From contig KV918816.1 in the NCBI GenBank assembly GCA_002049455.2, positions 62,001 through 126,000 of the forward strand: DNA of 64,000 nt, written 5' to 3'. The notes beneath the pieces are model-generated. The model did no database searches, was not told where the DNA came from, and worked only from the letters and a program-made list of their open reading frames with translations. The position numbers were made by a program, and so were the translations under genes. This DNA is from Porphyra umbilicalis. Lineage: Eukaryota > Rhodophyta > Bangiophyceae > Bangiales > Bangiaceae. This document shows positions 8,486 to 40,480 of the stretch, in pieces; within the stretch, counting starts at the first letter, position 1, and each line of letters starts with the position of its first letter.

Positions 8486-11374
8486 ATGACTGTCATCGGG
8501 GTCATTTCGCGGGCGTCTTCAGTTCTCTTTTCCGCAGCCGACGAGGCTGCTTTTGCTCGCCGGCTCCACTTTTTGGGCGTGGACGACGCTATGGTGACCC
8601 GCCCTTTTGCCACGTCGGCGGCGGCCATGTGCTGGCTCACGGATCCCCTCACGAACGACGTTGTCGTCAACTGCTGTAGCACCGAGCTCTTGCGTCCGTC
8701 GTTGGGGTCGCCGCCGGCCGGCTGGTTGGCTGTGGTCACTGGCGGGTCTCGCTGCTGTTTTGATGTCGGCCGCGGCGGCATGTCGGCCGTCTTGCAGTTG
8801 CTGAGCGGCACGGCCTCCTCGCTGACGATTGTGCGCAAGTTCAACCACATCCACGACGCGCACGGGTGGGTCAACAGCGTGGCTGCCAGTGACCTGTTTG
8901 AGGTGCTTCTTGCGGTTTTTCCAGCTGCGGACGACGGTGGGCACGTTGCACCCCCCGGCGTGCCGCGGCTTTGTGCTCCCCCTCCGGTGTTTCGTCCTCG
9001 TGCGCCGCTTGGGCTCACCGGCGCGTGCTCGGTGTCTTCCCAGACGGTGCATCTCGCCACTCCCGGCTTTGCGCCACCCGCTGGTGTGGTGTCTGTCGTG
9101 CCTCGGGGGGTGCCGGCGCAGCCGTCTACGGACTCGGAGGTCGTTCTGCTTTCTCCTGTGCTCTCGGTGGACAAGGACACGGCCTCGTCTCTAAGCGTGG
9201 CCGACTCGGACGAGGTGGTGGACCTGACCGCTCACTACATCTTCGACGACTTGCTGCTGGCGGCTAGCGGCTGTGACACGCCCGACAGCCGCGCGCCGCG
9301 GGCACACGGGGCTGCTCCCTCGCTCTTACGTGGGATGCGGGCGCCTCCCGCCACGGCGACCACCGCCCCTCGGCAACAATCGATGACGAGCAAGTCGGGC
9401 GCCGCCGCCGCCGCCCCAACGACGAGCCGTCCGGCTGCTCCCCGAGTCGGGTCCGCCGCTGCCCATCCGGGCGGGGTCCTACCGGGCTTGAGGATGTCAA
9501 GAAAGCGCGCCAACGTCTCAGATCCTGCATCGCTCGCCCAGAAGCGGTATAAGGCCATGATCAACGGCGGCTTCCTTGGCGGTTCGGCGGGCACTTCCGC
9601 CTCACCGATGGGATCCCCTCCATCGACCTACTCTGCGCCTTGGGTGCGCGGACTTGGAGCTGCCGCTCGCCGTCCAGCAGAAGCAAGTGCCGCAGGGCTT
9701 GGCGGGCAGCCGTCCGACTCAGTATGGTCGGGCCAGGGCAGTCGTCGCCGCGCCGTTTCTGGCGGCTCGTCGGGCCGTGCCGACCCTTCTACGTCGTCCA
9801 GGGCACTGACGGGGACGGCATCACCTGCCGTTGTGACCAGCACGGCCGGGCCCGGCAGCGCACTGATGCAAGCGCCGATGCCGGAGGTCTCCGTCGAGGC
9901 GCCGGCGGTCGATGGCTTGAGCAGCCGCGCCGAACTCGGCAAGGAAGCACCTAAGGTGCGCGCCGGTCCCCTTGGCCTCCTGGCGCGCGTCGACAACTGG
10001 GAGGAGGTCTTTCTCCGCCTGCACGCGAGGAACAAGAGTACCTTCATCACGGGGGGACCTGGGGTCGGCAAGTCCACGTTCCTTCGGCGGTTCTCTGCGC
10101 TCCTGCGGCTGCATTGGCGGGCGCAGGAGGAGGTCATCGTCGTTGGTCCAACGGGAAGCTCGGCCAAGACCTGCGAGGGGCAAACCTACCACTCCTTTTT
10201 CGGTTTCGGCCATCAGTACATGCCTGGACACTCCAACGCCGCCGCCGAGGCGGCGCACCTGCTGCAGCAGAAGCGGTGGGGTCCGATTGCCCGCCGACTG
10301 TCGCTTTTTCGGGTTCTCCTGCTGGATGAGATCTCCATGGTGCCAGCGGCGACACTGGACACGATGCGCGAGTTGCTGCTGCAGTGCCAGCCGGCGAATG
10401 CGCCGCAGTGCGTCTTCTACGCCTTTGGCGACTTCTTGCAGCTGCGGCCACCGTATGGCGGACTGGCCTTCACCTCTTCCTGCTGGCGGGAACTCTTTGG
10501 CTACAAGATGCTCGAGCTCACCTGGGTGCGCCGGCAAACGGAGCAGGATTACATCGCGGCCATTCAAGATGCAAGGTTTGGGCTTTGCTCCGCGCGGTTT
10601 GCGCGGCTCATGCACGAGCGCTGCGTGTCGGGCGCTGCCTACGCCGAGATTGAGACGAGCGTGCTGCACCTCGTGCCGCGCCACAAGGACGTCACGGCTC
10701 ACAACACCAAGTGCTTGTCCCGTCTGGCGGGCAGCAATCGACCGGCCGACTTCCTGTGCGAGGACTCGCTCGAGGTCGACACCGACCGCGACCCGTCCCT
10801 GCGCGCGCCGGACCTGCGGCGGATTACAGCGGAGACGCGTGCGGCGGCATTGATGGAGTGCGTGGCGCCTCGCCGTGTGCAACATTGTCTTCACGCGCGG
10901 GTCATGTTCACGTCGAACTGCAAGATGTCGCTTGGGCTCTTCCACGGCAGTATCGGCCGCATCGTGGCCTACCTTCCCAACGGTTATCCCGTTTGCCGTT
11001 TTGAGAATCACTTCATGCCCGAAGGGGTCTCACGGGGGACGGACGGGCTCCGTGACGCTGGGGTTGGCTGGACTGAGGTGGAGTGCGCGCCTGTGAAGTT
11101 CAAGTCGCGGGTGCTGTCTGTGACTGGCGCTCTTGCTGTCCGTTTGCAAGTTCCTTTTGTACTGGGCTGGGCTATAACGGTGCACCGCTCCCAGAGCCTG
11201 ACGCTTTCGGAGGCGGTCCTGGACTTGTGCGAGGCGTTTGAGGATGGCATGGTCCACACGGCCGTGAGCCGGGTCGCCGATAAGCACCGCATGTATGTCA
11301 AGACCTTTTCACCTACTCGCATGTTGGCGGACGTGGCTGCCGTGCGTTATTATATGGAGTGCCCTCGGTTGTAA
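8486..11374 (+). CDS. PIF1-family DNA helicase
   Basis: 962 aa from the ATG at 8486. An in-frame ATG at 8366 is possible, and the frame stays open to 8207 without another ATG. The first 430 residues are low complexity (A, P, S rich). The C-terminal half has the PIF1/RecD-type SF1 motifs: Walker A GGPGVGKST at 523-531, motif Ia with VVGPTGSSAKT, Walker B LLLDEIS (D614), motif III GDFLQLRPP, a W-x-R-R-Q-x-E-x-D motif, an ArVMfTsN-like segment, and a C-terminal GWAITVHRSQSLTLSEA followed by AVSR. All the catalytic motifs are present, so the enzyme looks functional as a 5-prime to 3-prime ATP-driven helicase. Such genes occur both as host genes and as cargo of Helitrons and other large eukaryotic mobile elements. 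No Helitron Rep motif is visible in this window. It is tail to tail with the next gene, with 18 bp between stop codons. Confidence 0.85.
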   Translation: MTVIGVISRASSVLFSAADEAAFARRLHFLGVDDAMVTRPFATSAAAMCWLTDPLTNDVVVNCCSTELLRPSLGSPPAGWLAVVTGGSRCCFDVGRGGMSAVLQLLSGTASSLTIVRKFNHIHDAHGWVNSVAASDLFEVLLAVFPAADDGGHVAPPGVPRLCAPPPVFRPRAPLGLTGACSVSSQTVHLATPGFAPPAGVVSVVPRGVPAQPSTDSEVVLLSPVLSVDKDTASSLSVADSDEVVDLTAHYIFDDLLLAASGCDTPDSRAPRAHGAAPSLLRGMRAPPATATTAPRQQSMTSKSGAAAAAPTTSRPAAPRVGSAAAHPGGVLPGLRMSRKRANVSDPASLAQKRYKAMINGGFLGGSAGTSASPMGSPPSTYSAPWVRGLGAAARRPAEASAAGLGGQPSDSVWSGQGSRRRAVSGGSSGRADPSTSSRALTGTASPAVVTSTAGPGSALMQAPMPEVSVEAPAVDGLSSRAELGKEAPKVRAGPLGLLARVDNWEEVFLRLHARNKSTFITGGPGVGKSTFLRRFSALLRLHWRAQEEVIVVGPTGSSAKTCEGQTYHSFFGFGHQYMPGHSNAAAEAAHLLQQKRWGPIARRLSLFRVLLLDEISMVPAATLDTMRELLLQCQPANAPQCVFYAFGDFLQLRPPYGGLAFTSSCWRELFGYKMLELTWVRRQTEQDYIAAIQDARFGLCSARFARLMHERCVSGAAYAEIETSVLHLVPRHKDVTAHNTKCLSRLAGSNRPADFLCEDSLEVDTDRDPSLRAPDLRRITAETRAAALMECVAPRRVQHCLHARVMFTSNCKMSLGLFHGSIGRIVAYLPNGYPVCRFENHFMPEGVSRGTDGLRDAGVGWTEVECAPVKFKSRVLSVTGALAVRLQVPFVLGWAITVHRSQSLTLSEAVLDLCEAFEDGMVHTAVSRVADKHRMYVKTFSPTRMLADVAAVRYYMECPRL

Positions 11375-11392: not shown

Positions 11393-13944
11393 CTAGCCTT
11401 TGCTTTGCCACAGCTCACCAAGGCCCACATCTCCACTGCCGCCGATGGCACATGCACCATCGCTGTGTACCGCAGCAACAACTGGTACAGAGCCTTCATC
11501 CGCTATAGGCACCGTGGTCTCCGTTGCAAGGGTCTCGGCGGACGCCCCGTCGCCATCACCCGAGCCAGCCGGCAACACTGTATCCCCGTCGCCCGTAGTG
11601 CCGACTGCCATCAACGCGCTTGCCTCAGTCGCATGCCCAACACGTCCACCACCGCCATCCCCATTGCTTGCATCCGATGCGTTCGAAAGACCATTCATCA
11701 ATCCATCACATGCAGTCCCCATCCCCGGCACCAGCACGCTGTCGCCACTCGCCCTAGGTGTGCCGCCGCCAAGCCCACAATCAACCGCAGGTCCTCCTCC
11801 GCCACGTTCTCCGCCAGCCTCCCGTGCTCCACCTCCAGATCCCGCGCAACGCACCTTGCCACTAGTTGCAAGGGCCCGGCCACCACGGCCGCCACGAGCG
11901 GTAGCGGCAGCTCTGCGCTTCGTGGGAGGTGACGGGCTCCGACCAGGTGTCGCGGTCTTGCGCTTGCCCGCCCCCTGCAGGGCACTGGCGTTGCTTGGGG
12001 AGGAGGTAGAGTTGCCCGGCGCGGAACTGCTTGGTCCCTCGTCGGGTGCTCGGCCGCCGGCGCGCGGCAGCGGTGGTCGTCCGGATGCGCGTCGAGCAGC
12101 AATGCGCGCCGCCCTGTTCTGTGCGACTTCTCCAGTCCGCTCCTTGTCAAGCAGCTCGTCCATCTTCTCAAAGAGCTCGTTTGGAAACTGCGCCACAGGC
12201 CGGCGAGCTCCAGTACATCACTTGGAGGTCGAGGATTCACGGTGACAGGGCTTGAGGAAGACAATGGAGGCGCATTGGGGGTTGTGGGCAGAGCGTCGAG
12301 TGCAGCGCTGACAGTGGCGCCAGTGGTGGAGGCGGCAAAGTAGTGGTAGGTGGCAGTTGCCAGCGGCGCGGCACGCGGTGCATTCGGGCGCCCCCCGCTG
12401 GCCAGGTTGCCCAGGATTGGACCGAAGTTCTCGTCCTTGCTCGCGACCAGCAGCATCATTGCGGCTGTCACCGGCAGCCGCAACTTGGTGCTTGCAGAGT
12501 ACCGACCGACCGTCTCGTGCGATGACAAGGCATTCTTGGGGAAGTAACGGTGCGACCGGGTGGACAGCTTTTTCAACATATCATTTACACCGCTCATGTC
12601 CACGCGCACCCTCCATCGGGACGAGCGACAAGCCCTTGTCGCGTTGTCCTTGGCAGCGAAGGTCCCGTCGGGAGGCATGCCTGCAGGAGCATCTACAGGG
12701 GCGTTCCACACAGGCCACCACTGTGCCATCAAATCGAACACGTCCCCCCACTCCGTACGCTTACGACGATCACCGACATTGGACCGTCGGCAGGCCTTCC
12801 ACACTCTTGCCGTCGTAATCAAGCTGTCATTGAGCAGCGACCGCATCACCTCCGTCGCGTCCTCAACCTCCTTGATGGACTGCATGGCGGCGAGCACAAA
12901 GCCGACCGCGCTTGGCAGCGGGATGACCGTTGGTTGATTCTCAAAGTTTGTCATCGGGTTGGCACCGACCCCTTGGGAATCGGAGGCAGCCCCGTCGCCA
13001 GCCGACTGGCCAGGCTCCTCCTCCTCATCACCAGAACCCAGTGATGGTTCGCCAGCCACTGGATCTTGTCCGACCGACGCACCAGAGGTAGGATGGCCGC
13101 TGCCTTGTCCTTGAGCTGCCTCAAACGCTCGTTCAGCACCCGACGTGACGGACGTTGGAGGTGTACCGCCGGTTGCCAAAGGCGGGGGTGGCCGCGTCCG
13201 GTCAATGATGACTAATCCGCCGGGAGCCACCGCGGGGCCGCCGTCGCTTCTCATCGCCTTGTAGGGGTTACCGGCCGGTGGCACGACGCCCGCGCTTGGG
13301 GGACCACCATCGGTGGCACCTCGGATGACGGAACCGCCAGTGCAGGGCACCTCGTCGGTCGCGCCGACTAACGACGCAGTGCCAGGATGTGGATCTTGCG
13401 CGCCAGGGCGACTCGTATCCAAAGGTGCAAGCGATGCAACCTCGGGCATAGCAGCTACACCACGCTGCCCGACATCTCGGCGAGTCACCTCCACGCCACC
13501 GAGGGGCACATGCTCCCCGCCGGGAGTACTATTGGTCCGCGGCGCAGTCCGACCGGTGGAGCGACTTTGGAGGAGGAGGGCGTTGTCCTCAGTCAAGGCG
13601 TTGAGCTGCAAATTCCGGTAGGCGTACGACAGCCCAACGTTTACAACACGCTGGGCGTGGAGGTCCTTGTCCGTGAAGAACCCCAGCCGGTGCACGACCC
13701 GGATCCAGCGGTGGCGTGGCGCCTCGGTGGGGTTGGCCGACGTAATGTTGCGGCTCACGGCGGAGTGCAGCGACGCGCCGTGAGGAGCGAGATGCATGTC
13801 CAGCTTCGTCGCGGCCTCGTAGAAGAGACGCAACAGCGTGGAGAGATACGACACCTTCACAGCGTCGGTGATGCCGAGGACATCAAAAAACTCCACGTAC
13901 TCGTTGTAGTCCTCCCGCCCCGGCGCGGCACTCCCACTTGGCAT
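11393..13944 (-). CDS. Unrecognised large protein, probably two exons
   Basis: I do not recognise this protein. The ATG at 13944 (complement) opens a frame starting MPSGSAAPGRED. It has a structured-looking N-terminus of about 110 residues (aromatic and leucine rich, around YVEFFDVLGITD and WIRVVHRLGFF), a long low-complexity G/P/T region, a second structured block near 12480-12980, then a basic, Ala/Arg/Ser-rich tail. The frame changes near 12200. A 53-bp GT-AG intron at 12188-12240 would join the frames in phase 0 (about 832 aa total); a 29-bp intron at 12188-12216 also fits, and a simple frameshift is the alternative. The downstream frame starts FPNELFEKMDELLDKER and looks coding. Its stop lies 18 bp from the helicase stop on the other strand. 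The compact convergent arrangement suggests the two genes belong to one unit. Confidence 0.5.
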
Positions 13945-15203
13945 GATCACAGACCTAAACAACCAACAAAGCGTCGCAATGGAAAACGATAAAAGCAGTA
14001 GGAGAAGGGTGTACACGAATCGTCAATACATACGCCACTCCGATCGACACCGCCCAATATCACAAACGGCAAACTACCACGGCGCACGCAAGCGCGACCA
14101 TTGCGCAGTCGAAATGCACTCAGGAACCGCTGGAATGGGCGGGGAAGAGCTCGGGGACGCACCGTGTTGCGAGCCAAAGGAAGGAACTGAACGTCGTACA
14201 CGGCGACGCAAAGAGGCAGCATGGGTACCGACGTCACGCATGGTGGGGACGGGGGGGGGGGGCGCGTGCGAGCGCACCCGGGGCACGTGGTGCGCACGGG
14301 GCCGGTGGGGGGGGGCGACGCGCGCGAACGGGACAGTAGCCGGTGCACGCCCCTGGTGGGGGGTCGATCTCGTGGCTGGTCGCCGTCGCTGGCGATGATT
14401 GAAGCGTCGCGAGGAGTGGCCAGAGTGGAGCATGAGGAGAGCAAATCGTCAAAATCGCCGCATGAGAAGATTGTGGGTGGAAAACAACCGGCACCCCCCA
14501 ATCCCCCCCAAAAGTGCGCGCGGAGCGCGCGCACCCCCCCCCCCCCCCCAGCGTGCGAGATTGGTTTCACGGTGGTTTCACGGCAAATTTGTCGTGAAAG
14601 CTATTACGCTCGATTCCTAACTCACATTTCCGTGTGTAGGCTAGGCTGGTGCCCCCGAGGCCACCAGCTGACTGCCCCGCTACGCGGGGTGGCCCTACAG
14701 GAATAAGAACAGAAGTAAAGGTACAGGCACCAAGACGCAAGCAAGTGGGCCGCCCACCGCCGCGGTGCTGGCGCGCCTTGTGGGTCCGGGAGCGAGCAGG
14801 GCGTTGGCTGCCCGCGGCCACCAGTCCATAAGCGTGCGACACGTGCGCGCCACCGCCCAGAGAGCGGCGCCACGTGGGCCGTCTTGTCGTGTGCGTCTTG
14901 TGCGAGGAAGATGGGCGCTATTACCACTCGGGGTGATGCAGCCTCGAGCAGATGGGAGGGTGGGTGGGAAGCGCGAGGAGAAGGACGCTGCCGGCCCGGT
15001 TGGGCCGGCCGTGGCCTGGCCCCGTCTCGGTCTTGACCGGCGGCGGGTCGCGCCGCCCTCCCCCGCGCCGGTGCTCGCCGCAGGGCGCCGGCGCCCACAC
15101 TAGCGCAGAGAGAGAGAGCGGGAGAGGGGGGGAGGCGGGCACCGCTGCCCGGCGGGCGAGTGGAAGCTGGCGGTCGAATTGCGGCGGGCGTGCGTCACGC
15201 CGC

Positions 15204-21553: not shown

Positions 21554-21613
21554 AACGGACGGTGGCGACGGCGGCGGAGGTGACTCGACTCGGGGCTAGC
21601 CCTGACGTCCAAG

Positions 21614-23260
21614 ATGGAGCCCACATACGTGATGGCTAAGCTGGGCATTGACAACCACATGACGTGGTTTGCCAACATTGAGTATGCAGCAAAGATGCGG
21701 GGGTGTTGGGAGGCCATCCAGGAGGCGGTGGCCATGGACGTCGAGGTCGAGCTCACGACCCCAGGCGGACTTCCCCCCAAGGCGTTCTTGACCGCCACGC
21801 TCACCTCGGCACAAGCAACGGCAGAGCAGCGGGTGGCCGCCGGGCTGCAGCTGCGCGCCTTGGACTGGAAAAAGATGGACGCCATGGCTCTGGGGCTCAT
21901 GCAACAGAACGTCTCGGACATGTACTACCCGGCATTCCGCATGCACCAGACCGCGCACGCGCTGTGGCAGCACCTGCAGCTGACGTACCGGTCGCAAGGG
22001 CTGGCGCGCACGGCGGACATCCGCAAGAAGATGACCAACTTAAGGATGATGCCCACGGAGGCCATCCCTGTGTACATCAGCAGGGGGTCTGCCCTGCTCA
22101 ATGAGCTGCTCAACCTCGGGCACACGGCAAACGAGGTGGACTTGGTCGCGGCGGTCTTGGCCGGCCTATCTCGAGCCTACAGCGGCATTGTGGGCACCTT
22201 GACGATGCTGCGGATTACCTCATTGGCAGAGGTGACCGAGCACCTCATGGCCGCCGAGGTTACGCACAAGCGTGACGACGCCAACGAGATGGAGGAGGCC
22301 CGCGCCCTCGCCGCAGTAGGGGCGGCACGCCTTGCACCACCCCTCGGCCCGGGCCCTGCGCCGTACGGTGGGGACAACGCGCAGCACGCGCCCATGTCGG
22401 ACCGTTACAACCCTCTGCCGGTTCGATCGGCAGGACCTCGCCGCCCGGTTGCTTCGGACGCATTCCCGGTGTGCTATGGGTGTAACCAGATTTGCCACAT
22501 TCGCCTGTTCTGCCCCAACATTCAAGGCCCTCCGGGGGGCTGCTTCCGGCCAACAGCGACGGCGGCGGCCCAGACGGGTATGGTACGTATGCCGCATGCG
22601 GCACATGCCGCAGCTCCGGCCGCGCCCCCGACAGGCAACCGCCCGTCGCGTGGGCCGGGGGGTAGCGGCCTGGCCATGACGGCAACGTGTGCGTCCGCGA
22701 CCGCGACTGGCGCGCAGCGCCCTGTCGACACCTCCGATTGGGTGATCTACAGCGGCGCCTCTCACCACATGGTGGGGAGCGAGACCAACTTGACGGATTG
22801 CGCTGAGATCGACCCGATGACCATCAAGACGGCGATGGGGGAGGAGGTGGTGGTGACGCGCGGCGGGACGGCTACCATGGACCTGCACACGACAGACGGC
22901 CTGCAGGTCGTGACCCTGCACGACGTGCTGGTCGTGCCCGGCCTTTCCCTATCCCTGTTCTCAATCCGCGCCATGATGGTACGCGGGTACGACGCCCTGT
23001 TTTCCGGCGGCGGGGTGGCGATTCAGTCGGGGGCATCGGTGGTCTTTCGGGGGTGCCCCCGCGGCAACGTCTTTGTGCTACCGCTGGCCAAAAGCCAACT
23101 CAACTGCAACGAGGGCCTGGCTGGCGCCGCCGTGTCGGCGCCGGTTTGGCACCAGCGGCTGTCACACGCCGGCGCGGACGCCGTATGGCGGANCAGTTGT
23201 GTTGGAGGGGGCGCAGCTACGGCTGGTGAGACGCGTCCAGACCCGCCGACCCGGGTAAAG
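21614..23260 (+). pseudogene. Copia element B gag-protease-integrase fragment (decayed)
   Basis: A second copia family, clearly divergent from A. The ORF starts MEPTYVMAKLGIDNH. It has a UBN2-like Gag region (about residues 1-230) and a CCHC knuckle CYGCNQICHIRLFC with a Cys in place of the usual Gly. A protease-like region reads WVIYSGASHHM, where functional copia proteases have an aspartate just before SGA; here it is Tyr. A GAG-pre-integrase start, APVWHQRLSHAGADAV, runs up to an ambiguous base (n) at 23193. Just after it, another frame continues with VVLEGAQLRLV, which suits the same domain, so a frameshift sits at or near the n. Integrase, RT and RNase H and the 3-prime LTR are missing. 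The copy is non-functional and truncated on the right. Confidence 0.8.
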
Positions 23261-24059
23261 GACACTTGAGACTGAGACCGACCAGGTTCTGACCTTCATC
23301 CACGCTTCTGGTCCCGCCCGTCCCGTGTGAGTCTTGCGCCCACTTGTCTGCCGACATGAACGGCCCCGAAGGTGCCCCTCGGTCCTCCTCCGCAGTGTAC
23401 GCTCGTCCCCCCTTCTCCGACCTGTCTGGCGGGGAAGCTTCGGCCTTCAATGCGCTGCCACCTTCTCTTGGCCCACATTCGGGTGCCGGAGCGCCTCTAG
23501 GTGGGCCGCCCCACCTTACCGGCGGTGGTGTCGCCGGCCCGGCATCTATGCTGCCTTTGTACGGTCCCTCTGGCGGATCTATCAGGGCTGTCTTGTGGCA
23601 GCCGGCCAGCCAACACCTGCACGGTGGCCATGGGTTCCTTCCCGGCACTCCTCCTTTGCAAGAGCCGGCGGCGGGCAGCCAGTCGGGGGTGTCTCAGAGG
23701 CCGCATCTGTCTTTTTCTCTTCCGCCACCCGTGCTTCAAGACGGCAATGGCACGGGCGTTGGTGAGGGGCCTTCGCTGCAGCCGATGATGATGAACATGC
23801 TCCCTTCCGGTCTGGCTCATCCACAGCCCCGGGTCGTCCATGCCATGCAACTTGGGGCTCCCCCGTCGGGCCACGCTCCGGAGCCGCCTTTTGCCATGGA
23901 TCCCCCTATGTCGGCCCCTCCCGCCACCGTTATTGAGCAGCCACCACCGCTTGGCGACATGCCGGAAGGAGGTCTGCCGCTGGGGCGGTCTCGATCGGCC
24001 GCCTCCCTCGCGGATAATGACGATTTCACGGACTTCGCGGCCGATGTGGCTGCCTTGGC

Positions 24060-24440
24060 TGTTGGACTGTGATGCTCGTCGCCGACTCCACCGGCGGTTG
24101 GCGGTTGGACGATGGTCGGTGACCCTTATGGTACCCCACATGGTACATTTGCAAGACGTGGTCAAGTTGCACACATTTGTGTTGGGTCATCTTGGGGCGT
24201 TACTTTTGGCATGTTTTGGATTTGATCTTCGCTTTGCTCTAGTGGCTTTTGATTTGGTGAGTGATTCGATTTGGTGCGAGGGCGTGAGCGTCGGTGTGGG
24301 CGCGAGAGGGGGGAGCACTTGGGCCGGTGGGGACTATTTGAGAGGTGCTCTCGGTTGGGAGAGGCGGGCGAACCTTAGGACAACCAACAAAGCACGTTCG
24401 CACACACACACACAAGCTCAAGCCACTCAACCACTTCACC
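24060..24440 (+). repeat. Solo LTR of the copia-A family, left part
   Basis: This is the first 381 bp of a family A LTR. It is interrupted by A2 and resumes at 29405-29441 (37 bp), giving 418 bp in total. The reassembled LTR is flanked by a perfect 5-bp target duplication TTGGC (24055-24059 and 29442-29446). It is therefore a genuine solo LTR left by LTR-LTR recombination. It is more diverged than the A1 and A2 LTRs, for instance in the first 50 bp. Confidence 0.9.
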
Positions 24441-24858
24441 TGTTGGACTGTGATGCTCGTCGCCGACTCCACTGGCGGTTCGCGGATGGATGATGGTCGC
24501 TGACCCTTATGGTACCCCACATGGTACATTTTCAAGACGTGGTCAAGTTGCACACATTTGTGTTGGGTCATCTTGGGGCGTTACTTTTGGCATGTTTTGG
24601 ATTTGATCTTCGCTTTGCTCTAGTGGCTTTTGATTTGGTGAGTGATTCGATTTGGTGCGAGGGCGTGGGCGTCGGTGTGGGCGCGAGAGGGGGGAGCACT
24701 TGGGCCGGTGGGGACTATTTGAGAGGTGCTCTCGGTTGGGAGAGGCGGGCGAACCTTAGGACAACCAACAAAGCACGTTCGCACACACACACACAAGCTC
24801 AAGCCACTCAACCACTTCACCGTGGTCCCCCAACCCCTATCCCCACTACGATTCAACA
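24441..24858 (+). repeat. Copia-A2 5-prime LTR
   Basis: 418 bp, one T shorter than the A1 LTRs in a T run (near 24594). It is followed by the same GGTTATGGGCCCAGAGCC primer-binding region at 24859-24876. Confidence 0.95.
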
Positions 24859-25019
24859 GGTTATGGGCCCAGAGCCGGGGCTGTGACAAGAGCAAGGTGT
24901 GCCAGCTGGTGTCGCGGCGGTCGCGGCAAGTGCGAAGAAGACGAGGTCAAGGTGGTTCAAGGACGTGACGGTCAAGACGCACGGCTCGGCAAGGTCGGGC
25001 GCTACGACAAGAAGACATC

Positions 25020-28000
25020 ATGGACGGAGGCGCTGCCGGCATGGGCGGCATCAAGATCGACAAGTTGACGGAGACGAACTTCCACGAGTGGCGTCAGCGC
25101 ATTAAGATGGTCCTCGCGCTGCGCTACCTGGACGATATGCTTGACGAAGACGGCAAGCCGACGGACGCGGATGCCCGCGAGTTGGCGGTGTGGAAGCGTC
25201 GAGACACGAAGGCGAGCGCCATCATCGGGCTCACCCTTGGATCTGAGCAGCTCGAGCACGTGGCGGGCTGCAAGATGACGGCGGAAATGTGGTCGACGCT
25301 GCAAGGTGTCTTCCAGCGCAAGAGTTTGATGAACAAGATGAAGGCGCGACGCGAGTTCTACACCGTCGAAATGACCGTCGGCGAGGGCATGCTGGGCTAC
25401 ATCAACCGCGTGCGCAACCTCGGCGAGAACCTCAAGGCCATGGGCGGCGAGGTGACGGAGATGGACGTTGCCATGAGCGTCCTGAACGGGCTGACGTCCA
25501 AGTACGAGAACCTGCTGGTGGCTCTCGACGCCAAGGGCAAGGACGAGCTGAGCCTCGACTTTGTCAAGAGCCGCTTGCTTCAGGAGGAGCGGCGGCAGGC
25601 GGACAAGTCACCGGCGACGAAGCGCATTGGGGACATGGCACTCGTCGGCGCCAACTATCGAGGTCAAGGCCGCCGTGGTGACCTCTCCAAGATCGAGTGC
25701 TACTACTGCCATGCGTTTGGGCACATCTCTCGCGATTGCCCAGAGCTCAAGGCCAAGAAGCAGAGACAGGACAAGGTGGCCGCGATTGCGGCTGACGATG
25801 GTAGCGACAGCGACGACGCCATCTGTCTGGTGGGCAATGCCGCCGACAACGATGACATCTCCAAGTCGTGGCTTGTCGATTCTGCGGCGTCTGCACACAT
25901 GTGCTGGATGCGCGGGTGCTTCGACGACTACCAGACGACCACGGGACGCAGCGTCACCATGGGTGACAAGGGGTCCGTAGCCACGGCGGGCGTCGGAACC
26001 GTCGTGCTCAATGTCATCGTTCACGGCAAGACGCGTAACATCAAGTTGGAGAAGGTACTCCATGTTCCTACCATGGGCTTCAACCTCATGTCGGTCGGCA
26101 TGATGGAGGAACGAGGTGCGGAAGTGTCATTCAAGGGCGGTAAGACGATCATCAAGATTAGCGACAAGGTCGCTGCGTGCGGCACGCGGAAGAGTGGGCT
26201 CTACCACCTGGACATGGCCCCACTGTCGGATATTGCTGCGGTGGCCTCTCTTCAGCTCTGGCATGAGCGCCTTGGGCACGTCAACGTGGCTGGCGTTAAG
26301 CGGATGATCAAGAACAAGGACATCGATGGACTCAAGTGCTCTTCCATGGCGGTCAAGGACGTCTGTGAGCCGTGCGTGTATGGAAAGGCGGCTATGACGC
26401 CTATGCCTAGTGCAGGAGGAGGTCGAGTCAGCAAGCGCCTGCAGCTCGTGCACTCGGACCTGGGCGGGCCAATGTCGGAGCCGTCCCGTGGCGGTGCGCT
26501 CTACTTTGGCACCTTCACTGACGACTTCTCCCGCTGGACAGACGTGGTCTTCCTGCAGAAGAAGAGCGATCTGCTCTCGGAGTACAAGAAGTGGCTGACG
26601 AAGGCCCAGCTGCACACGGGAACCAAGATGAAGATCCTACGCTCCGATAATGGCGGCGAGTATGTGTCGAATGCATTCAAGGCTCTTCACGATGAGAACG
26701 GCACGACGCACCAGACCACGGTGCCCGACACGACGCAGCAGAACGGAGTTGCTGAGCGGCTCAACCGAGTTCTCGTGGAGATGGCTCGCACCATGATGCG
26801 ACACAAGGACGTCGATCAGGATCTTTGGGCGGAAGCCATCAAGACGGCGGTCTACATCAAGAACCGCGTCACGAGCAGGGCGCTTCCTGTTGGCAAGACG
26901 CCTTTTGAGCTGTGGACCGGGAATAAGCCCGACGTAAGCCACATGCGGGTGTTTGGGTCGACATGCTGGGTCGTGCTGCACAAGAGTCACATCGACGGCA
27001 AGTTTGGCGACCAGGCGGCGAAGGGCGTCTTCTTAGGCTATCCCGACGGCAGCAAGGCGTACAAGGTCATCCTCGACGACGGCAAGGTCGTCAAGGCACG
27101 AAGCGTCGTGTTCGCCGAGACGAACGTAAGCGAGGTGGCAGAAGTTGCAGAGGAGCTTCCCGGAGACGAAAACGTCGGAGTCGAGACGGGTTTGCGCTCT
27201 GAAAGCGACGGCGGAGACGTGGATGCTGACAATGACGACAAGGATGACAAGCAAGACGATGGATCTGACAAGTCCGTGGATGACAATCAAGGTTGTGGCG
27301 GCTCTCAAGACACGCTGCGTCGGAGCGGCAGAGCGCGGCGACCCCCTGTCGAGTACTGGCGCCCGGTGAGCCTGGTTGCTCACGAGGCGCCCACGACGTA
27401 CGTGCAAGCCGTTCAAGGGCAGGAATCGGCTAAGTGGCAGATTGCCATGGACGAGGAGATGGAGGCCATCCGCAAGAACAAGACTTGGCGCTTGACGGAT
27501 CGCCCGGCCAGTCGACGCGTGCTGAAGGGCAAGTGGGTTTACAAGGTCAAGAACGAGGTTGACAAGAACGGGAACAACACGACGCGTCACAAGGCGCGTC
27601 TGTGCTTCATGGGGAACCGGCAGATCAAGGGGCTCGACTTCAACGAGACGTTCGCGCCGGTGGCCAAGTTTACCACCATTCGATGCATCCTGGCGATGAC
27701 GGCGGCGAACGGGTGGGAGCTACATCAGATGGACGTCAAGACGGCATTCCTCAACGGCGACCTTGACGAGGAGGTCTACATGGAGCAGCCAGACGGCTAT
27801 GTCGATCCGACGTATCCTGACAAAGTGTGTCGTCTCCTCCAAGCGCTGTATGGGCTGAAGCAAGCTCCCAAGATGTGGTACGCCAAGCTCGACGACTTCC
27901 TCAAGTCGCAGGGGTTTGACAACATTGACCCGGATGCATGCCTTTACCTCCTCATGGATGACGGCGAAATCATCATCGTCCTGGTGTACGTCGACGATCT

Positions 28001-28946
28001 CCTGTTGGTGGCATCAAGCCTGGCGGCGATCTACAAGATTAAGGACGCTCTGCACAAGCGTTTTGAGATGAAGGACCTGGGCGAGGCGAAGGTCATCCTC
28101 GGGCTAGAGATTAGGCGTGACAAGGCGTTGGGCACCCTCAAGCTGTCGCAGGGCAAGTACGCGGCGCAAGTGCTGGAGAAGTTCGGGATGGCGGAGTGCA
28201 ACCCGATCGGAACGCCGCTGGAGGTGGGCCTGCAGCTGGTCAAGGCCGACGAGAGCGACGACGTGCTGCCCTACCGCGAAGCCGTCGGCAGTCTGATGTA
28301 CCTGATGGTCGGGACACGTCCTGACCTCGCCTTCGCTATCGGGAAGCTGAGTCGGTTTGTTTCGTGCTACGGCAAGGAGCATTGGGCGGCGATCAAGCGC
28401 GTTCTACGGTACGTCAAGGGTTCGATGGACGAGGGGCTGGTCTTCGACAAGAACTCCTCCTGTGTTCTACAAGGCTTTAGTGATGCCGACTGGGCGGGTG
28501 ACCACGAGACGCGACGCTCTACGACGGGCTTCACCTTCATATTTGGCGGGGCAGCCGTCAGCTGGGGTTCTAAGTTGCAGAAGACGGTGGCGCTGTCGAC
28601 GATGGAAGCCGAGTACATGGCTCTATGTGAGGCCAGCAAGGAAGCTGTTTGGCTCAACACGCTCGTGCAAAGCGTGGCAACCCAAGGGCTGCGGACAGCG
28701 ATCTGGGGCGGGCCGATAAACATCAAGGTCGACAACAGCGGGTGCATTGACTTCTCCAAGAACCCCGTCGAGCACAAGCGCACTAAGCACATCGACATTC
28801 GCAACCACTTTGTGCGCGAGGCCATCACGACGGACAAGGTGACACTGGAGCATTGTGCAACGGACGACATGGTGGCGGACCCGATGACGAAGGAGCTCGG
28901 CAAGACCAAGCACGACAAGCATGTCGAGGCCATGGGGCTTTGCTGA
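25020..28946 (+). CDS. Copia-A2 Gag-Pol polyprotein, catalytic motifs intact
   Basis: 1308 aa, same length and register as A1. Knuckle CYYCHAFGHISRDC; protease VDSAASAH; integrase D-D-35-E triad with an altered loop (TTQQNG where A1 has TPQQNG); reverse transcriptase box YVDD intact (codons at 27990-27998); RNase H SDADWAGD and EAEYMAL present. There is no stop or frameshift. Gag and Pol share one frame with no visible frameshift site, so the Gag to Pol ratio must be set by another route, such as splicing or protein turnover, as for plant copia elements. The leader between LTR and ATG is 161 bp, the same as in A1. Confidence 0.95.
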   Translation: MDGGAAGMGGIKIDKLTETNFHEWRQRIKMVLALRYLDDMLDEDGKPTDADARELAVWKRRDTKASAIIGLTLGSEQLEHVAGCKMTAEMWSTLQGVFQRKSLMNKMKARREFYTVEMTVGEGMLGYINRVRNLGENLKAMGGEVTEMDVAMSVLNGLTSKYENLLVALDAKGKDELSLDFVKSRLLQEERRQADKSPATKRIGDMALVGANYRGQGRRGDLSKIECYYCHAFGHISRDCPELKAKKQRQDKVAAIAADDGSDSDDAICLVGNAADNDDISKSWLVDSAASAHMCWMRGCFDDYQTTTGRSVTMGDKGSVATAGVGTVVLNVIVHGKTRNIKLEKVLHVPTMGFNLMSVGMMEERGAEVSFKGGKTIIKISDKVAACGTRKSGLYHLDMAPLSDIAAVASLQLWHERLGHVNVAGVKRMIKNKDIDGLKCSSMAVKDVCEPCVYGKAAMTPMPSAGGGRVSKRLQLVHSDLGGPMSEPSRGGALYFGTFTDDFSRWTDVVFLQKKSDLLSEYKKWLTKAQLHTGTKMKILRSDNGGEYVSNAFKALHDENGTTHQTTVPDTTQQNGVAERLNRVLVEMARTMMRHKDVDQDLWAEAIKTAVYIKNRVTSRALPVGKTPFELWTGNKPDVSHMRVFGSTCWVVLHKSHIDGKFGDQAAKGVFLGYPDGSKAYKVILDDGKVVKARSVVFAETNVSEVAEVAEELPGDENVGVETGLRSESDGGDVDADNDDKDDKQDDGSDKSVDDNQGCGGSQDTLRRSGRARRPPVEYWRPVSLVAHEAPTTYVQAVQGQESAKWQIAMDEEMEAIRKNKTWRLTDRPASRRVLKGKWVYKVKNEVDKNGNNTTRHKARLCFMGNRQIKGLDFNETFAPVAKFTTIRCILAMTAANGWELHQMDVKTAFLNGDLDEEVYMEQPDGYVDPTYPDKVCRLLQALYGLKQAPKMWYAKLDDFLKSQGFDNIDPDACLYLLMDDGEIIIVLVYVDDLLLVASSLAAIYKIKDALHKRFEMKDLGEAKVILGLEIRRDKALGTLKLSQGKYAAQVLEKFGMAECNPIGTPLEVGLQLVKADESDDVLPYREAVGSLMYLMVGTRPDLAFAIGKLSRFVSCYGKEHWAAIKRVLRYVKGSMDEGLVFDKNSSCVLQGFSDADWAGDHETRRSTTGFTFIFGGAAVSWGSKLQKTVALSTMEAEYMALCEASKEAVWLNTLVQSVATQGLRTAIWGGPINIKVDNSGCIDFSKNPVEHKRTKHIDIRNHFVREAITTDKVTLEHCATDDMVADPMTKELGKTKHDKHVEAMGLC

Positions 28947-28981
28947 ATACAAGAACCGCCGCGGCAACAAGCAAGGAGGAG

Positions 28982-29399
28982 TGTTGGACTGTGATGCTCG
29001 TCGCCGACTTTACTGGCGGTTCGCGGATGGATGATGGTCGCTGACCCTTATGGTACCCCACATGGTACATTTGCAAGATGTGGTCAAGTTGCACACATTT
29101 GTGTTGGGTCATCTTGGGGCGTTACTTTTGGCATGTTTTGGATTTGATCTTCGCTTTGCTCTAGTGGCTTTTGATTTGGTAAGTGATTCGATTTGGTGCG
29201 AGGGCGTAGGCGTCGGTGTGGGCGCGAGAGGGGGGAGCACTTGGGCCGGTGGGGACTATTTGAGAGGTGCTCTCGGTTGGGAGAGGCGGGCGAACCTTAG
29301 GACAACCAACAAAGCACGTTCGCACACACACACACAAGCTCAAGCCACTCAACCACTTCACCGTGGTCCCCCAACCCCTATCCCCACTGCGATTCAACA
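28982..29399 (+). repeat. Copia-A2 3-prime LTR
   Basis: 418 bp, directly after the AAGCAAGGAGGAG polypurine tract. It is followed by the TCACC duplication and the last 37 bp of the host solo LTR. The sequence from 29400 looks like a 41-bp duplicated LTR end, but it is the remainder of the older LTR. Confidence 0.95.
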
Positions 29400-29404
29400 T
29401 CACC

Positions 29405-29441
29405 GTGGTCCCCCAATCCCTATCCCCACTGCGATTCAACA
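29405..29441 (+). repeat. Solo LTR of the copia-A family, right part
   Basis: 37 bp completing the LTR that begins at 24060. It is followed by TTGGC (29442-29446), the second copy of its own target duplication. Confidence 0.9.
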
Positions 29442-29446
29442 TTGGC

Positions 29447-31620
29447 AGCGTCTGGGAGTGGCCGCCGCCGCCGACTGCCGCCCAGCCCTGCTTTTCGACG
29501 TGTGTCTCCGACATTGCGTGCGGGTCACGGGCCTTCCTTCTGCGATGGGAGCGCTGGCGCTGGTGCAGGAGATGGCCACGAGGACGACGTTGCCGGCGGG
29601 CACTCTGGTGTCGGTCTCGGCCGTGGCCGTGGAGCCGTCGCTGGCGGTCGCGGCGGTGGTGCTGGGGCGGCTTCAGTCGGTCGCGGCAGAGGCCGTGGAG
29701 GCTCTGCTACCGCTAGCGCTCGGGGAGGCGTTCGCGGTGGTGGTGGTCGCTGCAGAGCCGTCCGCGGTGGCATGAGCGGCAGCCAAAATGACCCGGGTAG
29801 CCTGGTGGCTACTGTGGGGAACGACGAGCACGGCGCCGAGTCACGGGCTGCCGCCGGCGGGCGCTGGGCGCGGTCGCGGTCGTGGTCGCCGTGGAGCGGC
29901 GGCGACCGGCGCCGTGTCCCACCCGCGTACGGTTGCAGGCACGGATGCCTCCGTGCTCGCGAGGGTGATGGAGGCCGAGCCGAATGGGGCGCACACGACG
30001 CAGGACCGCCTATTGCACGCCTTGGTTTTGGACATGAAGGCGATGCGCGCAGATGGCGCGGCGTATCGGGCCAACACGGCGAGCGTCAAGGTCAACAGCG
30101 AGTTGGCTGTGGGCAAAGTCGACGAGTGCTTGCAGGCCCTCATGGACATGCATCGCGTGCACGCCTCTGTCGTGCTGCGCCTTTTGGCGCTCGAGGAGGC
30201 GATGGCGGCGGTGGTCTCAAACTCGGCTAGTGGCTCGTCAGTGACGGCACCAGCTAGTTCGGCGGCCTCTCCTCGGGTGGGCCGACCGGTGTGGGCCTTG
30301 CGCCAACAGGTATGTTGCTCGCTCTCTCTCATTTTCTTTCCTCCGACATATTCTGGGATCGCCGCGGCAGGTGCCGTCATTGGGAACTGGCTTGGAGACT
30401 GAAGCCTGCACGTGTGCATGTGGTTGTTCCTACTGCTGTGGTATGTCAGTTCCGTCTCTCTCCCTTTTCCGTGTCTCCCACCGTCGCAGAAAGAGGTGCG
30501 CCGCCGGTACTCTGGGACGGTGATTTGCGCGACGACGCCTAAGGATGGCAACCCGGACGCCGACGACGTTTACTGGATGTCTGTGCTGGTCATCCATGAG
30601 CACCCCGGCATCACCGCGATGGAGAAGGCGGTTGAGTTTGGGAACACACCCATCTGGCTCAAGGGCCGCTTGTGCGCCTCCAACCCGACAAAAGCCGACT
30701 TGCGGGTCGTGTTGTTCGAGTACCTGCGGCGGCCGGTGGCGGCCTGGCACTTTGAGTCGAAGGCCATCATCAGCAAGATCTTCATCAACCGTATCTGCGT
30801 GTTGCTCAACTGTGGCGCCCAGGTGCGGGACGGTCTCAACGAAGGCCAGTGGGTCATGGAGAGTTACGACGCGCAGGGGCTGCTGTACAACGACAAGCTC
30901 TTCAGGAACAACAAGTGCAAGGACGCGTGTTTGATGGCACTGCACGGTTGGCTTGAGTGGGGACTTTACCTCGACAAGTTCTACACATTTCCCACGGAGG
31001 TGAACGGGGAGGGGACGTACAAGGTGTACATGCATATGTACGCGTTTGTCATGACCAATGTGCGTTCCAATTGTGTGTCTTGTCTGGTGAGGCGTGTTGA
31101 GCGGCGGGCTCGACATTATCTTGGGGTCTCTTGTGGTTTCCTGTCGCTCACTGTCGATTTTGTGGCCGCTCTCTTGCTATTGCATGGAATTTTCCTTCGT
31201 GGCTGCGTTTCACAGGTGTACCTGACGCTGCGGCGCATCGCCAAGCATAAGCCCTTCACCGCGTCGGCAGACAACGTGGATGGCGGCTTCCGCAAAGTGC
31301 ACGCTTGTGTGGCGATCCTAATGGACCGCTATCTCCCTCGCACCGGCGAGGCCGAAGAAGGCCTTCAGCTCTTGGACGGGACGGACCCGAACCGTGGCAT
31401 CACCTCCGGCCTGTCCGAGTCGGACCTGACCGAGACGATGGAGCAGATTGACACTGCGCGGCTGACCCCGGTGGCCGATCAGGGGGGCGACGAGGGGAGT
31501 GGGGGGGGTCATGCGGAAGGTGGCGACGGTGGTTGGGCTGACCAGGATGAGGATGGGTTGCTGCTTCCAACGTGGGACCTTGAGGAAGAGAAGCACGACG
31601 AAGACGGCGATCAGCAGTGA
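29447..31620 (+). CDS. Right part of the interrupted gene: RG-rich region, unknown globular domain, acidic tail
   Basis: These are the exons right of the insertions: 29447-29796, 29939-30309, 30490-31059 and 31216-31620. An ATG at 29772 (MSGSQNDPG) lies in frame just before the first remaining intron, so a shortened protein of about 457 aa without the N-terminus and RG repeats could be made. The 3-prime LTR of A2 and the solo LTR remnant lie directly upstream in the same orientation and could supply a promoter. The introns of 180 and 156 bp are multiples of three and lie in frame. Only the first has in-frame stops, so retention of the second would insert 52 residues. No domain recognised. Confidence 0.55.
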
Positions 31621-33360
31621 GTACTGCGCATGATGCCGTCGGTTGATGGTTGCTCGCCTCTCATGATGTTGCCTCTGCCCTGCTGCTGCTGTTGTATCTG
31701 ATCCGCGACGCCCGCCTGCCAGCTCGGCTCTTTTTCTGGTTTGCTTTTTTATTTGTTCCTGCTGTCTCGGGAGCACTGTTCTTGTGTTTGCATTCTTCCC
31801 TCGTGCTGATCGGACCATAGAGACAGCAACAGGGTATATTTCTGTTCTCTCTCGCACTGTATGTCTTGGGGCGCCTGCTCCGATTTTTGCCGCAGGCGAT
31901 TGTGCAGCTGCCGGCGGCTGTTGTCTGTTCAACCATTGTGGCAACCGGTCGTGGGCGGTGGCGGCCGGCTAGTGCCGTGCGGGCGATCGTACGTTGCTTG
32001 TCGTACGCATTAGTACGGCACCTAAACCAAACTAGATGGTAACCAAAGACCCCTAGCTGGGCAAAAGTAGTGTACACTAGCAATAGAAACAAATAGAAAG
32101 CACTTGACTAGCGGTTTTAAGTTGATGGTACGTTACCATAGGCTGTAGCGTCTAAGTCTTGATTCCGTGGGAAATACAACTGACGCAAGCGAACAGGGCC
32201 CGGTGGCAGTGCCGCGAGGGCCGCCAAGGACCGCCGCTCACATACCTCGGGATGGCGCATACCGGGGCAAAGAGCAAGGGCCTCTGCTCCCATGACACTC
32301 GTGACCTGTTCCTGTTGCTGCCTGCCTCCCCCCTCCACATCATTGATTGCGCCCGTTTTTAATACTTTCAGAGGGGGGGTAGGCGCCCATCAGTATCCGA
32401 TTGACCCGTCTATCAGTCTGCGTTGATCGGCCCGTTGGATCGCCCATTGGATGCCCTGATTATTAGGTGGGCACAAGTCTCTGATGATGGATACACACGG
32501 GCGGGCGCCCCCCCCCCCCCCCCCCCCTCCCCCCCAAGTGACCGCCCGCCGCGGCGCCACGCGCCGCCCTGGTATTGGCGGCGACGTCGCCGGCGGGAGG
32601 GTGCCTCGCGCCCGTCGCAGTCATCAGCCACAGCGGCGGGTGTGGCCGACAGCGGCCGCGTCGCCCCCGTCCGCCCCGACTCGCAGTGATCGCAACGGCG
32701 GTCACGACCTGCTGTGGTGCGCGCGTCCGTGCCGAGCGCGCGCCCGCCACGAGTGGAGACACTCCCGCACGGCGCGGAGTCACGGTCAGTGCAGCCACAT
32801 GGCGGCGCGACGCGGCCGTGGCTGGCCGCCACGCCCCGCCCTGCGCACCCTGTCTGTGTGTCACCCAACGCCAACCCGCGCGTGCGGCGGCGGCCGCGGA
32901 GGCCATCTCCCTGATCGTGACTCCACCGTCCCCATGTCATGTTTTGCTTGTCTGCCCCCGGTGACTAGTTCACATCTGGCCATCAAGAAACCCATCTCTG
33001 CTACTCCCCCTCTTTCACCGTAGGCGGTGCCCCACGGGGCCCCCTGCAAAGCTCCACACAGTACTCCGAGGCGGCGCTTTCCCACGCATCGCCGCCGCAG
33101 CTCACAAGGCGTTCCACGATTACCGCCGAGTGGTTGCGTCCGTACGGCGCGCGACGGACGCCGCCGGTCCGGTCGCTTCGAAGCAAACAAACAAGTGTGA
33201 CCTTTGAGATTTCTACAGGGAAATTGTAATGGGTTTTGTGAACACGTGTCAATTCCATAAGTACACAAAAAACACGCGGAAATCAAACTGAAGCCAGCCC
33301 TAGGTAATCAAAGAAAAAAAATCGTCCCATAGCATGGTGACCTGGCCTATTTTTGCACCG
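31621..33360. other. Gene-poor stretch with a small palindrome and a poly-C run
   Basis: 3-prime flank of the interrupted gene followed by mixed sequence. An imperfect palindrome at about 31971-32034 pairs GTGCCGT and CGTACG with CGTACG and ACGGCAC. A run of about 23 C lies at 32510-32528 and just beyond, starting a GC-rich block (32500-32960) with open frames on both strands and no recognisable domain. 33200-33350 is A/T-richer. No gene supported. Confidence 0.55.
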
Positions 33361-38095: not shown

Positions 38096-40480
38096 CCCCT
38101 CCCCTTGCGAGGTAGTATTTGGCATTCTGAGGTAGTATTTGACATTCTCGATCACGTACCGTTTTTTGGTGCGTGAGGGGGGTGGGGGGAGGCGGCCTGT
38201 GCGCGCGCCACGTGGGGGGATTCAGGGGGCGCGTGGGTGGTGGTTTGGTGGGGGGGCTAGCACTTTTTGAATTCTGTCGATTTTGTGCTACGATGCGACC
38301 TCGTGCATTTTTGTACTTGCAATGAAGCTCGTGACCAGACATGACCGCCCCGACACCTGTGTCTGGCATCACGGTGATCCAGATGGGTGTTGGGCTGTCC
38401 TCTCACTCAGCGGGGGGGATCTGCACTGTCACTGGACGTGCACGAACTGCCGCCCCCGCCCTCGCCGCCGCCGCCACCGCCGCCCCCGCACCCGCTGCCG
38501 CCGCCGTCGCCGCCCCCGCCCCCGCCTCTACGCTCGCCGCCGCCCCCTCCGCCGCCGCCGCCCCCGCGGCTGCCGCCCCCGCCACTGGCCGCGGCTCCCG
38601 CCACTGGCGCCTCCTCCGCCCCTGGCCGCCTCCCCCGCCCCTGGCCGCTTCCCCCGCCCCTGGCCGCCTCCCCCGCCCCTGGCCGCCGCCCTCTCCGCTG
38701 GCCCCCGCCCCCCCTCGGGCCGCCACGCCCGCTGCTGCCGCAGCCCCCGCCGCCGCCGCTGCTGCCGCCCCTGAACGCGGCCCCCGCCACTGGCACCGCC
38801 GCCGCCGCTGCCCGCTGCCCCCCCTGCTGCCGCCGCCCCCGCCGCCGCCATCGCCGCCACCCATGGCCGCGGCCCCCACCCCCGCCGCGACTCCCGCCCC
38901 TGGTTGCAGCCCCCGCCGCCGCCGCCGCCCCCGCCCCCGCTTCTGCACTCGCCGCCGCCCCCGCCGCCGCCGCCGCCCCCGCGGCCGCAGCCCCCGCCGC
39001 CGCCACCGCCGCCGCCCCTGGACGCGGCCCCCGCCACTGGCGCCGCCGCCGCCGCTAGCCGCTATCCCGCCTGCTGCCGCTGCCCCCGCCACCGCCGCCA
39101 CCCCCGCCCCTTGCCGCGGCCCCCGCCACCGCCGCCGCCCCCGCCCCTGGCTGCAGCCCCCGCCTCCGCCGCCGCCCCAGCCCCTGGCCGCGGCTCCCGC
39201 CGCTGGCGCCGCTCCCGCCCCTGGCCGCCTCCCCTCAGGCTCATTGGAGTGGCGTGGGTATTGGGCTGGTGAAAAAGGTGTCGCCGTGGGTGGTGGAGGA
39301 GGTGGGGTACGGGGTGAGGGGGGAGGATTGGTACTGAGGCGCAGGTGGAGCATGGTACAGGGTGGGGGGGCAGCGAGGTTTGGGTATGGTCCGAGGTAGC
39401 AAACTGGGTGGGGGTGGAGTCGGGGTACTGACTGGGCGTGTTTCTGGCGACCAGGGCGTACAGCCGAGCGGGCGCGGGGAGGTGAATGCGGCGTGTGCTC
39501 AAGAGAAACATCTTGGGACAGACCCTCCCTGTCGCCACATCCTGACCACTGTATTCCCTGGCCTTTAGGACAGGGTGCTCTCAAAGTGTAGTGATGCACA
39601 CATATACTTAGATCAAGGGACTTGCTCTCCGTTTCAGAGGTGGCAGTCTACATTCGTGTCCTCAGGGATCTGAGGGCGTGTCAGTGTTGGAAGGGTCGCG
39701 ATGACGCTAAAAGCGAATGGAGTTACGTGGCTGAGAAGGACTGTCCTGCCATAGGGGTCACTGGGCCCGGACGGCGCCTGCCCCCGTGCCCCCTCTACCG
39801 CCCCGAGTTGCGCGCGCGGTGACCGCGCGCAGCGACTTGCGGGGCTTGACGCGCCCACCATGACCCGTGGGTGATCGTGTCTGCGCGCCGTCTTCTATTG
39901 CGGCGGCGCGTCGGCGGTTGTTGACGCCATCTAGCGGCGCGGTTACAGGCGCCTCGTCGCGCGGCGATCAGTCCCACCCGCCCGCCCGTGCGCCGCGTCG
40001 GCCGCCCTGCCCGCCGTGCGCAGATGCGCTGCGCGGCGGAGTGACGGCCTCGCCCGTGGGCGCCGCGCGACGCCGGCGGGCCGCCGCCGCTGCGGTGGCG
40101 GAGGCGGCACCCCTTTCCCCGCCCGACGCCCCCCCCACCACGGCAACGTGGCTGTACGTGCCCCCGTGCGCGCTCGCGGCCATAGAGCCGGCCGGCGTGC
40201 CCGGTGTCAATGCGTCGCCGAGCGCGCCACGGCCCTGAAGGCCAGGGTATTGTACGCACGTGCCTGGAATTACTGTTTTCTGAAATTTGGCCGACTCGGA
40301 CAGGAACAGGACTGGGCCCAAACGTGATCTGATTGGTGCACGTCATTTTTCTGTTGCGCCCATTGGCCGAGGCAGCTGTTTCTGCCGTGTTGTTCTTGTT
40401 TGCATCGGCTAAAATTCAGCGAACAGCGAAATTCGGTAAGATCGCTGACACTGCATGGTCCAGTTGATTACACGTCTGTC
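38096..40480 (+). repeat. Inverted segmental duplication, left arm (with R2 insertion)
   Basis: It matches 47136-48827 in inverted orientation. Shared content: the end TGCGAGGTAGTATTTG, the block around CACGTACCGTTTTTTGGTGCG, a long CCG-rich tract (38430-39240), and a unique-looking flank to CACGTCTG at 40478. The left arm has a short local duplication near 38098-38135 and the R2 element at about 39555-40266, which is absent from the right arm. CCG tract lengths differ in detail. No gene is supported inside; long ORFs on all frames of the CCG tract are compositional. Confidence 0.85.
39553..40266 (-). mobile_element. R-family element, copy R2, with empty site preserved elsewhere
   Basis: Complete R element in the orientation opposite to R1. 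The left end is TTCCCTGGCCTTTAGGACAG and the right end GTGCCTGGAATT. The right arm of the inverted duplication (complement of 47333-47350) reads straight through CCACTGTATTACTGTTTTC with no element, so R2 is a real insertion. The target duplication is ATT or AT; shared bases at the ends prevent a firm choice. Confidence 0.8.

Follow-up and report, generated by a model that had tools for sequence, protein, structure and literature searches.

A gene broken by nested retrotransposons in the red alga Porphyra umbilicalis is probably (we put the chance at roughly three in four) the accessory, or second, gene of a Plavaka-like DNA transposon with terminal inverted repeats (TIRs), the copy having later been interrupted by the retrotransposons. 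The gene lies at positions 23356-31620 of a 64,000-nt stretch of contig KV918816.1 (hereafter the window). The first-pass annotation had described it as an unknown gene, belonging either to the host or to a mobile element hit by others. The gene is real, and it belongs to a large family, without an existing name, members of which are carried by Plavaka-type cut-and-paste DNA transposons. The mobile-element proposal is borne out by relatives on recent TIR elements with target duplications, by the linkage of the family to Plavaka transposases, and by a TIR-type end behind the gene; the host-gene proposal finds no support. The features of the gene and its surroundings are collected in Table 1.

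Table 1. Features of the gene, the retrotransposon nest, and the right end of the putative element in the window
Feature	Position	Strand	Basis or remark
Single N	23193	.	junction of a truncated copia element (21584-23193) with the 5' side of the gene
Exon 1, 5' part: disordered, Pro/Gly-rich	23356-24059	+	open frame
Target duplication TTGGC	24055-24059 (first copy), 29442-29446 (second copy)	+	letters checked
Solo copia LTR	24060-24440 (5' part) plus 29405-29441	+	flanked by the TTGGC copies
Copia element A2 inside the solo LTR	24441-29399; LTRs 24441-24858 and 28982-29399	+	TCACC duplication
Exon 1, 3' part: RG repeats followed by a helical segment resembling a coiled coil	29447-30309	+	homology to C58/C300 and C89
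Reading frame shifts by one base; start of the intron (29797-29938) of the first-pass annotation	29797-29866	+	frames; C58/C300 uninterrupted
Intron 1, GT..AG, 180 nt	30310-30489	+	splice letters; corresponding exon start in C58 preceded by AG
Exon 2, core domain, 190 aa	30490-31059	+	relatives; predicted fold
Intron 2, GT..AG, 156 nt	31060-31215	+	intron at the same place in C58
Exon 3: GLQLLDG stretch, acidic tail, stop codon	31216-31620	+	homology
Right terminal segment of DNA transposon	32202-32488	+	91% to C14:219075-219360, ending at the same base
Right terminal inverted repeat	32466-32488	-	21 of 23 letters as at the C58/C300 right ends; outermost AT may be target duplication

The window gene is best read as three exons separated by two introns, compared with the four exons of the earlier reading. 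Exon 1 is split by the nest. One copia element would have entered the exon and been reduced to a solo LTR, and a second, A2, would then have entered that LTR. A duplication of TCACC (24436-24440 and 29400-29404) flanks A2 within the solo LTR; the LTRs of A2 are 97.9% identical to each other, and the solo LTR is 97.1-98.2% like them. With these two insertions, the window copy is dead. The rejoining of exon 1 across the nest, proposed in the first-pass annotation, is confirmed by a relative on C58 whose exon 1 is a single open frame (L007:7938-9590) aligning across the insertion point of the window. C58 reads RSRSAASL...ALAASGSGRRRRLP without interruption, whereas in the window the insert separates one half of this stretch from the other; both the TTGGC and the TCACC duplications were likewise confirmed. 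At its end, the 5' part of exon 1 matches exon 1 of C58 at 56% over 34 columns, and C58 continues unbroken there. The 5' edge of the gene is uncertain: the sole non-ACGT letter of the window falls where the truncated copia element adjoins this side. The 5' flank at 23195-23420 was considered as an LTR and rejected, being single-copy in the genome, and a mini-exon at about 30371-30440 was rejected because it breaks the frame.

The first-pass annotation had also proposed three introns and a product of exactly 800 codons. The sum stands, in that the exon lengths of the four-exon reading add up to exactly 2400 nt (a matter of arithmetic only), but the first of the three introns (29797-29938) is contradicted by C58 and C300, in both of which the corresponding stretch stays open in the same frame and has no intron. 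Between 29864 and 29938 the window differs from another relative, C89, at 6 positions, 4 of which are synonymous third-position differences in the downstream frame (alignment counted by eye). Because C58 and C300 are open here and the differences from C89 are mostly synonymous, the frame switch that falls between about 29797 and 29866 is most plausibly either a one-base frame change peculiar to the window copy or an assembly error. A real intron at this place, and with it a four-exon structure of the window copy, is very unlikely, even though the GT and AG letters are present and removal of the stretch keeps the frame to exactly 800 codons.

Mismatches between the window and C89 in exon 2 number 12, 6, and 36 at the first, second, and third codon positions (190 sites each), with no gaps, an overall identity of 90.5%, and a dN/dS of 0.14; for the pair L027/L029, dN/dS is 0.064. 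Judging by these codon-position counts and ratios, the protein has been under purifying selection, and a protein-coding signal is present in this exon, which the first-pass annotation had also drawn. The intron stretches are 73.5-84.5% identical between the window and C89 (limits set 1-2 bases off), and the middle of intron 1 is 85.5% identical. The window/C58 ratios are less telling (0.68 for exon 2, with dS 0.63, and 0.28 for the last exon, with dS 1.65), and C58 and C300 have too few differences in the last two exons for selection to be judged. The fold of the core domain was predicted with a pLDDT of 85.3 and a pTM of 0.77; fold searches returned no match.

Relatives were sought in the 83.8-Mb genome of P. 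umbilicalis itself. At the DNA level, 30490-31620 had matches at four places, the window included; at the protein level, exon 2 had matches at five, namely the window, C89, C58, C300, and the distant C149 (E 0.0098). The C89 copy is 90% identical to the window, contains one internal stop, and covers only window positions 29864-31156. C58 and C300 are 53% identical to the window in exon 2; between themselves they reach 99.4% identity over 6.5 kb, and they are perhaps two haplotypes of one locus; their shared blocks (L007-L010, L062) are 93-99% identical over more than 11 kb with insertions between them, as in haplotypes or a recent duplication. Together with the window copy (on C56), C58, C300, and C89 make up a close subfamily of four. 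Searches for more distant members gave 33 matches with seed L015 (E up to 10), 74 with L028, and 66 with L041 (both E up to 0.1). Merging of overlapping or abutting rows by hand left about 91 loci on 79 contigs with relatives of the ~190-aa core domain, the weakest of which may be chance matches. The gene, which could be assigned to no family at first, thus has homologues elsewhere in the genome, among them C58 as a copy intact across the insert. Stop codons occur in 11 of the 74 matches to seed L028, and dead copies are therefore common. One architecture is repeated in the listed frames, with a disordered N-terminus, a helical stretch, the core domain, GLQLxDG, and an acidic tail. Taken pair by pair, members of the window subfamily resemble those of the Plavaka-linked subfamilies weakly (C149 at E=0.0098; the window at E=0.028 from seed L015). 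Three things tie the window subfamily to the rest: the domain (also in an iterated profile), the tail exon, and the intron plan around the domain, which was judged by eye to be common to both. Exon 3 of the window is 47% identical to C58; with the tail exon of the mobile element on C82 it has 34% identity in 61 aa.

That element was delimited from three copies of a distant family member, on C6, C82, and C290, which are 99.3-99.4% identical over 6.6-6.7 kb (9.9 kb around each compared). Their identity stops at one sharp common right end and, on the other side, reaches the edge of the compared DNA. A pattern made from the common end (up to 1 mismatch) has 12 matches in the genome and none for the reversed control; the matches include the opposite end on C82, giving an element of 10,476 bp with inverted termini (CGTCGC..GCGACG). 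All four copies in which both ends could be read have equal 2-bp flanks (C82 AT, C6 CT, C290 AC, and C17 AT); a target duplication of 2-3 bp is a criterion for Plavaka. The C17 copy (L054, C17:280647-281889) is a short relative of 1,243 bp, bounded by the termini of the gene-bearing elements and probably non-autonomous. In the C82 element the family gene lies on one strand and a divergently oriented transposase on the other, the latter matching Plavaka (PF18759) with E=7.5e-9 and 35.7 bits (cut-off 26.3). A subterminal motif is found 10 times in the 700 end nucleotides of the element versus once in the 9,776 interior nucleotides.

The association with Plavaka extends beyond this element. Against at least 123 Plavaka matches genome-wide (E up to 0.1), 15 of the 91 family loci have a divergent match 4.9-8.2 kb upstream, where 0.6 would be expected; these 15 amount to about 12 independent loci, as C6, C82, and C290 all carry copies of a single element and the loci on C72 and C333 resemble each other. 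The same geometry is seen in 15 of the 18 pairs of a family locus and a Plavaka match within 15 kb. The linked loci include the C149 type and none of the close subfamily, and no Plavaka match was found within 15 kb of the window gene, C58, C300, or C89. A divergent upstream Plavaka match is absent from 76 of the 91 loci. Transposase_21 (PF02992, tnp2-type), with 150 matches in the genome, was found in divergent geometry within 9 kb at 0 of the 91 loci. A Transposase_21 gene lying 13.7 kb upstream of C300 was rejected as a partner; it most likely belongs to a separate element, frames of that length (946 aa) occurring at many places.

The window retains what appears to be the right end of its own element. 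The block common to C58 and C300 ends sharply at ...GGGCACATGTTTCTGATGAT, and the corresponding terminal repeat of the window stands 0.87 kb behind the stop codon, the DNA between having no alignment to C58 or C300. A similar segment on C14 diverges from the window at the same right end; C14:219075-219360 and C14:251985-252043 are pieces of the 3' region of the window element that keep their order but lie 33 kb apart, which would fit a copy broken up by other insertions. A right-terminus pattern (up to 3 mismatches) has 12 genome matches and 0 in the control, including pairs that bound short elements of 1,466 bp on C367 (L058, C367:44503-45968) and 4,112 bp on C384 (L059, C384:34039-38150), which share the termini of the gene-bearing elements and are probably non-autonomous relatives. 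The termini read as AT-CATCAG..CTGATG-AT, the window having CTGATG (+AT) at its right end; C367 and C384 have both CATCA..TGATG ends with AT/AT flanks, the AT possibly being part of the repeat. No left end was found in the window (up to 6 mismatches), nor were the left ends of C58 and C300, the C300 stretch being covered up to 86.5 kb, and no enrichment of 7-mers was seen at the right end of the window. Because the truncated copia element and the unresolved base at 23193 adjoin the 5' side of the gene, the left half of the window element may have been lost or displaced. The proposed link of the window to Plavaka-type elements rests on homology and on the right terminus, and its element would once have carried a Plavaka transposase.

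Other frames of the window were also inspected. The 774-codon open frame at 11701-14022 (-) was rejected as the missing transposase, since it matches no protein of the C82 element and no Pfam family. A 1116-codon frame at 2836-6186 (+) contains a Ulp1-type protease domain (PF02902, E 9.8e-22) and matches KDZ transposase at 24.6 bits, just under the cut-off of 26.6; the 1061-codon frame at 8189-11374 (+), with PIF1-like helicase matches (PF05970, E 1.2e-7; AAA_30, E 3.1e-9), may lie in the same large element. A Harbinger-like transposase frame (Plant_tran, PF04827, E 4.9e-62) is found at 51247-52794 (+). Positions 38129-39555 and 47344-48809 form a long inverted repeat whose arms reach 854 nt (95%) and are packed with GC-rich minisatellite of about 18- and 37-nt period. 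The GC content of the window is near 54-75% per 2 kb. Among the PDB matches listed for a light-harvesting protein of this genome (60 of 359), antenna proteins of red algae and cryptophytes score best, which, taken with the GC content, points to a red alga.

In the En/Spm (CACTA) elements, TNPA binds terminal and subterminal repeats and brings the ends and the transposase together. The family resembles En/Spm, with its TNPA and TNPD, in pairing a transposase with a separate non-enzymatic multi-exon protein and in the repeated subterminal motifs of the C82 element, which are not evident at the right end of the window. In contrast, the ends are CATCAG.. (window, C58, C300, and C367) or CGTCGC.. 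(C82 type) rather than CACTA, the family gene is unlinked to Transposase_21, and the window exons have no Pfam match to a TNPA-type family. The likeness to Plavaka lies in the transposase of the C82-type relatives and in the 2-bp target duplications of relatives. According to PMC12730594, Plavaka is placed in the CMCT group, the motifs C(2)C and H(3-4)H separate catalytic residues of its transposase, and PlavakaB has 5'-CATCA..TGATG-3' termini, as do the C367 and C384 elements and, at the right end, those of the window, C58, and C300. The same source describes TET/JBP as a second gene that fungal Plavaka elements can carry (PMC12730594); the algal elements are alike in having a second gene, but Pfam gave no dioxygenase match here. 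The algal elements differ from Plavaka in that their second gene comes from a family without a name and that the C82-type ends have another sequence. No description of such an accessory gene was found in the literature on Plavaka, also in combination with red algae, or on Pyropia DNA transposons and EnSpm, in a search lying mostly outside subscription journals.

The relatives suggest an element bounded by inverted termini in which the transposase and the accessory gene lie divergently on opposite strands. The accessory gene has two introns, and its protein would consist of a disordered part, RG/Pro-rich and containing a coiled coil, followed by the ~190-aa core, the GLQLxDG stretch, and the acidic tail. 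We infer that the protein binds DNA and has a role in transposition: it would bind the terminal or subterminal repeats of the element and, through its coiled coil and acidic tail, would most likely draw the transposase and the two ends into one complex in the manner of TNPA. Its function may be that of a TNPA-like binder of transposon ends or that of an anti-silencing cargo protein, VANC of the Arabidopsis VANDAL elements being an example of an anti-silencing transposon gene. A cargo gene with an anti-silencing or regulatory job outside the transposition machinery seems rather unlikely. The TET/JBP genes carried by several transposon lineages, Plavaka included, provide a precedent (PMC12730594), a chromatin factor might equally have RG repeats and an acidic tail, and Pfam recognised no enzyme domain in the window exons; however, subfamilies that differ widely from one another all include genes next to Plavaka-type transposases, a pattern more in keeping with an integral function than with occasional cargo. 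A lineage-specific family of host nucleic-acid-binding proteins, with some of its genes captured by transposons or lying next to them, would account for the multi-exon genes, the purifying selection, the many open frames, and the majority of loci with no detected transposase, but it is highly improbable given recent mobile copies with TIRs and target duplications at their borders, one fixed geometry with Plavaka at 15 of 91 loci, and a TIR-type end that the window gene has in common with C58 and C300 though the DNA between is unaligned.

Read as an accessory gene of a Plavaka-like element, an orphan that would be annotated as belonging to the host becomes instead the second gene of a transposon family counting some 90 loci in one genome. 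Tentatively, these proteins may form an undescribed DNA-binding family (a coiled coil, an acidic tail, and a core perhaps built of two winged-helix-like units) that works as an integral partner of Plavaka transposons of a divergent algal branch and diversifies with the termini of each element. Such elements can be sought in related algae with the gene as a marker, and the subfamilies, each with its own termini, offer a natural series in which to test the co-evolution of accessory proteins and terminal repeats.
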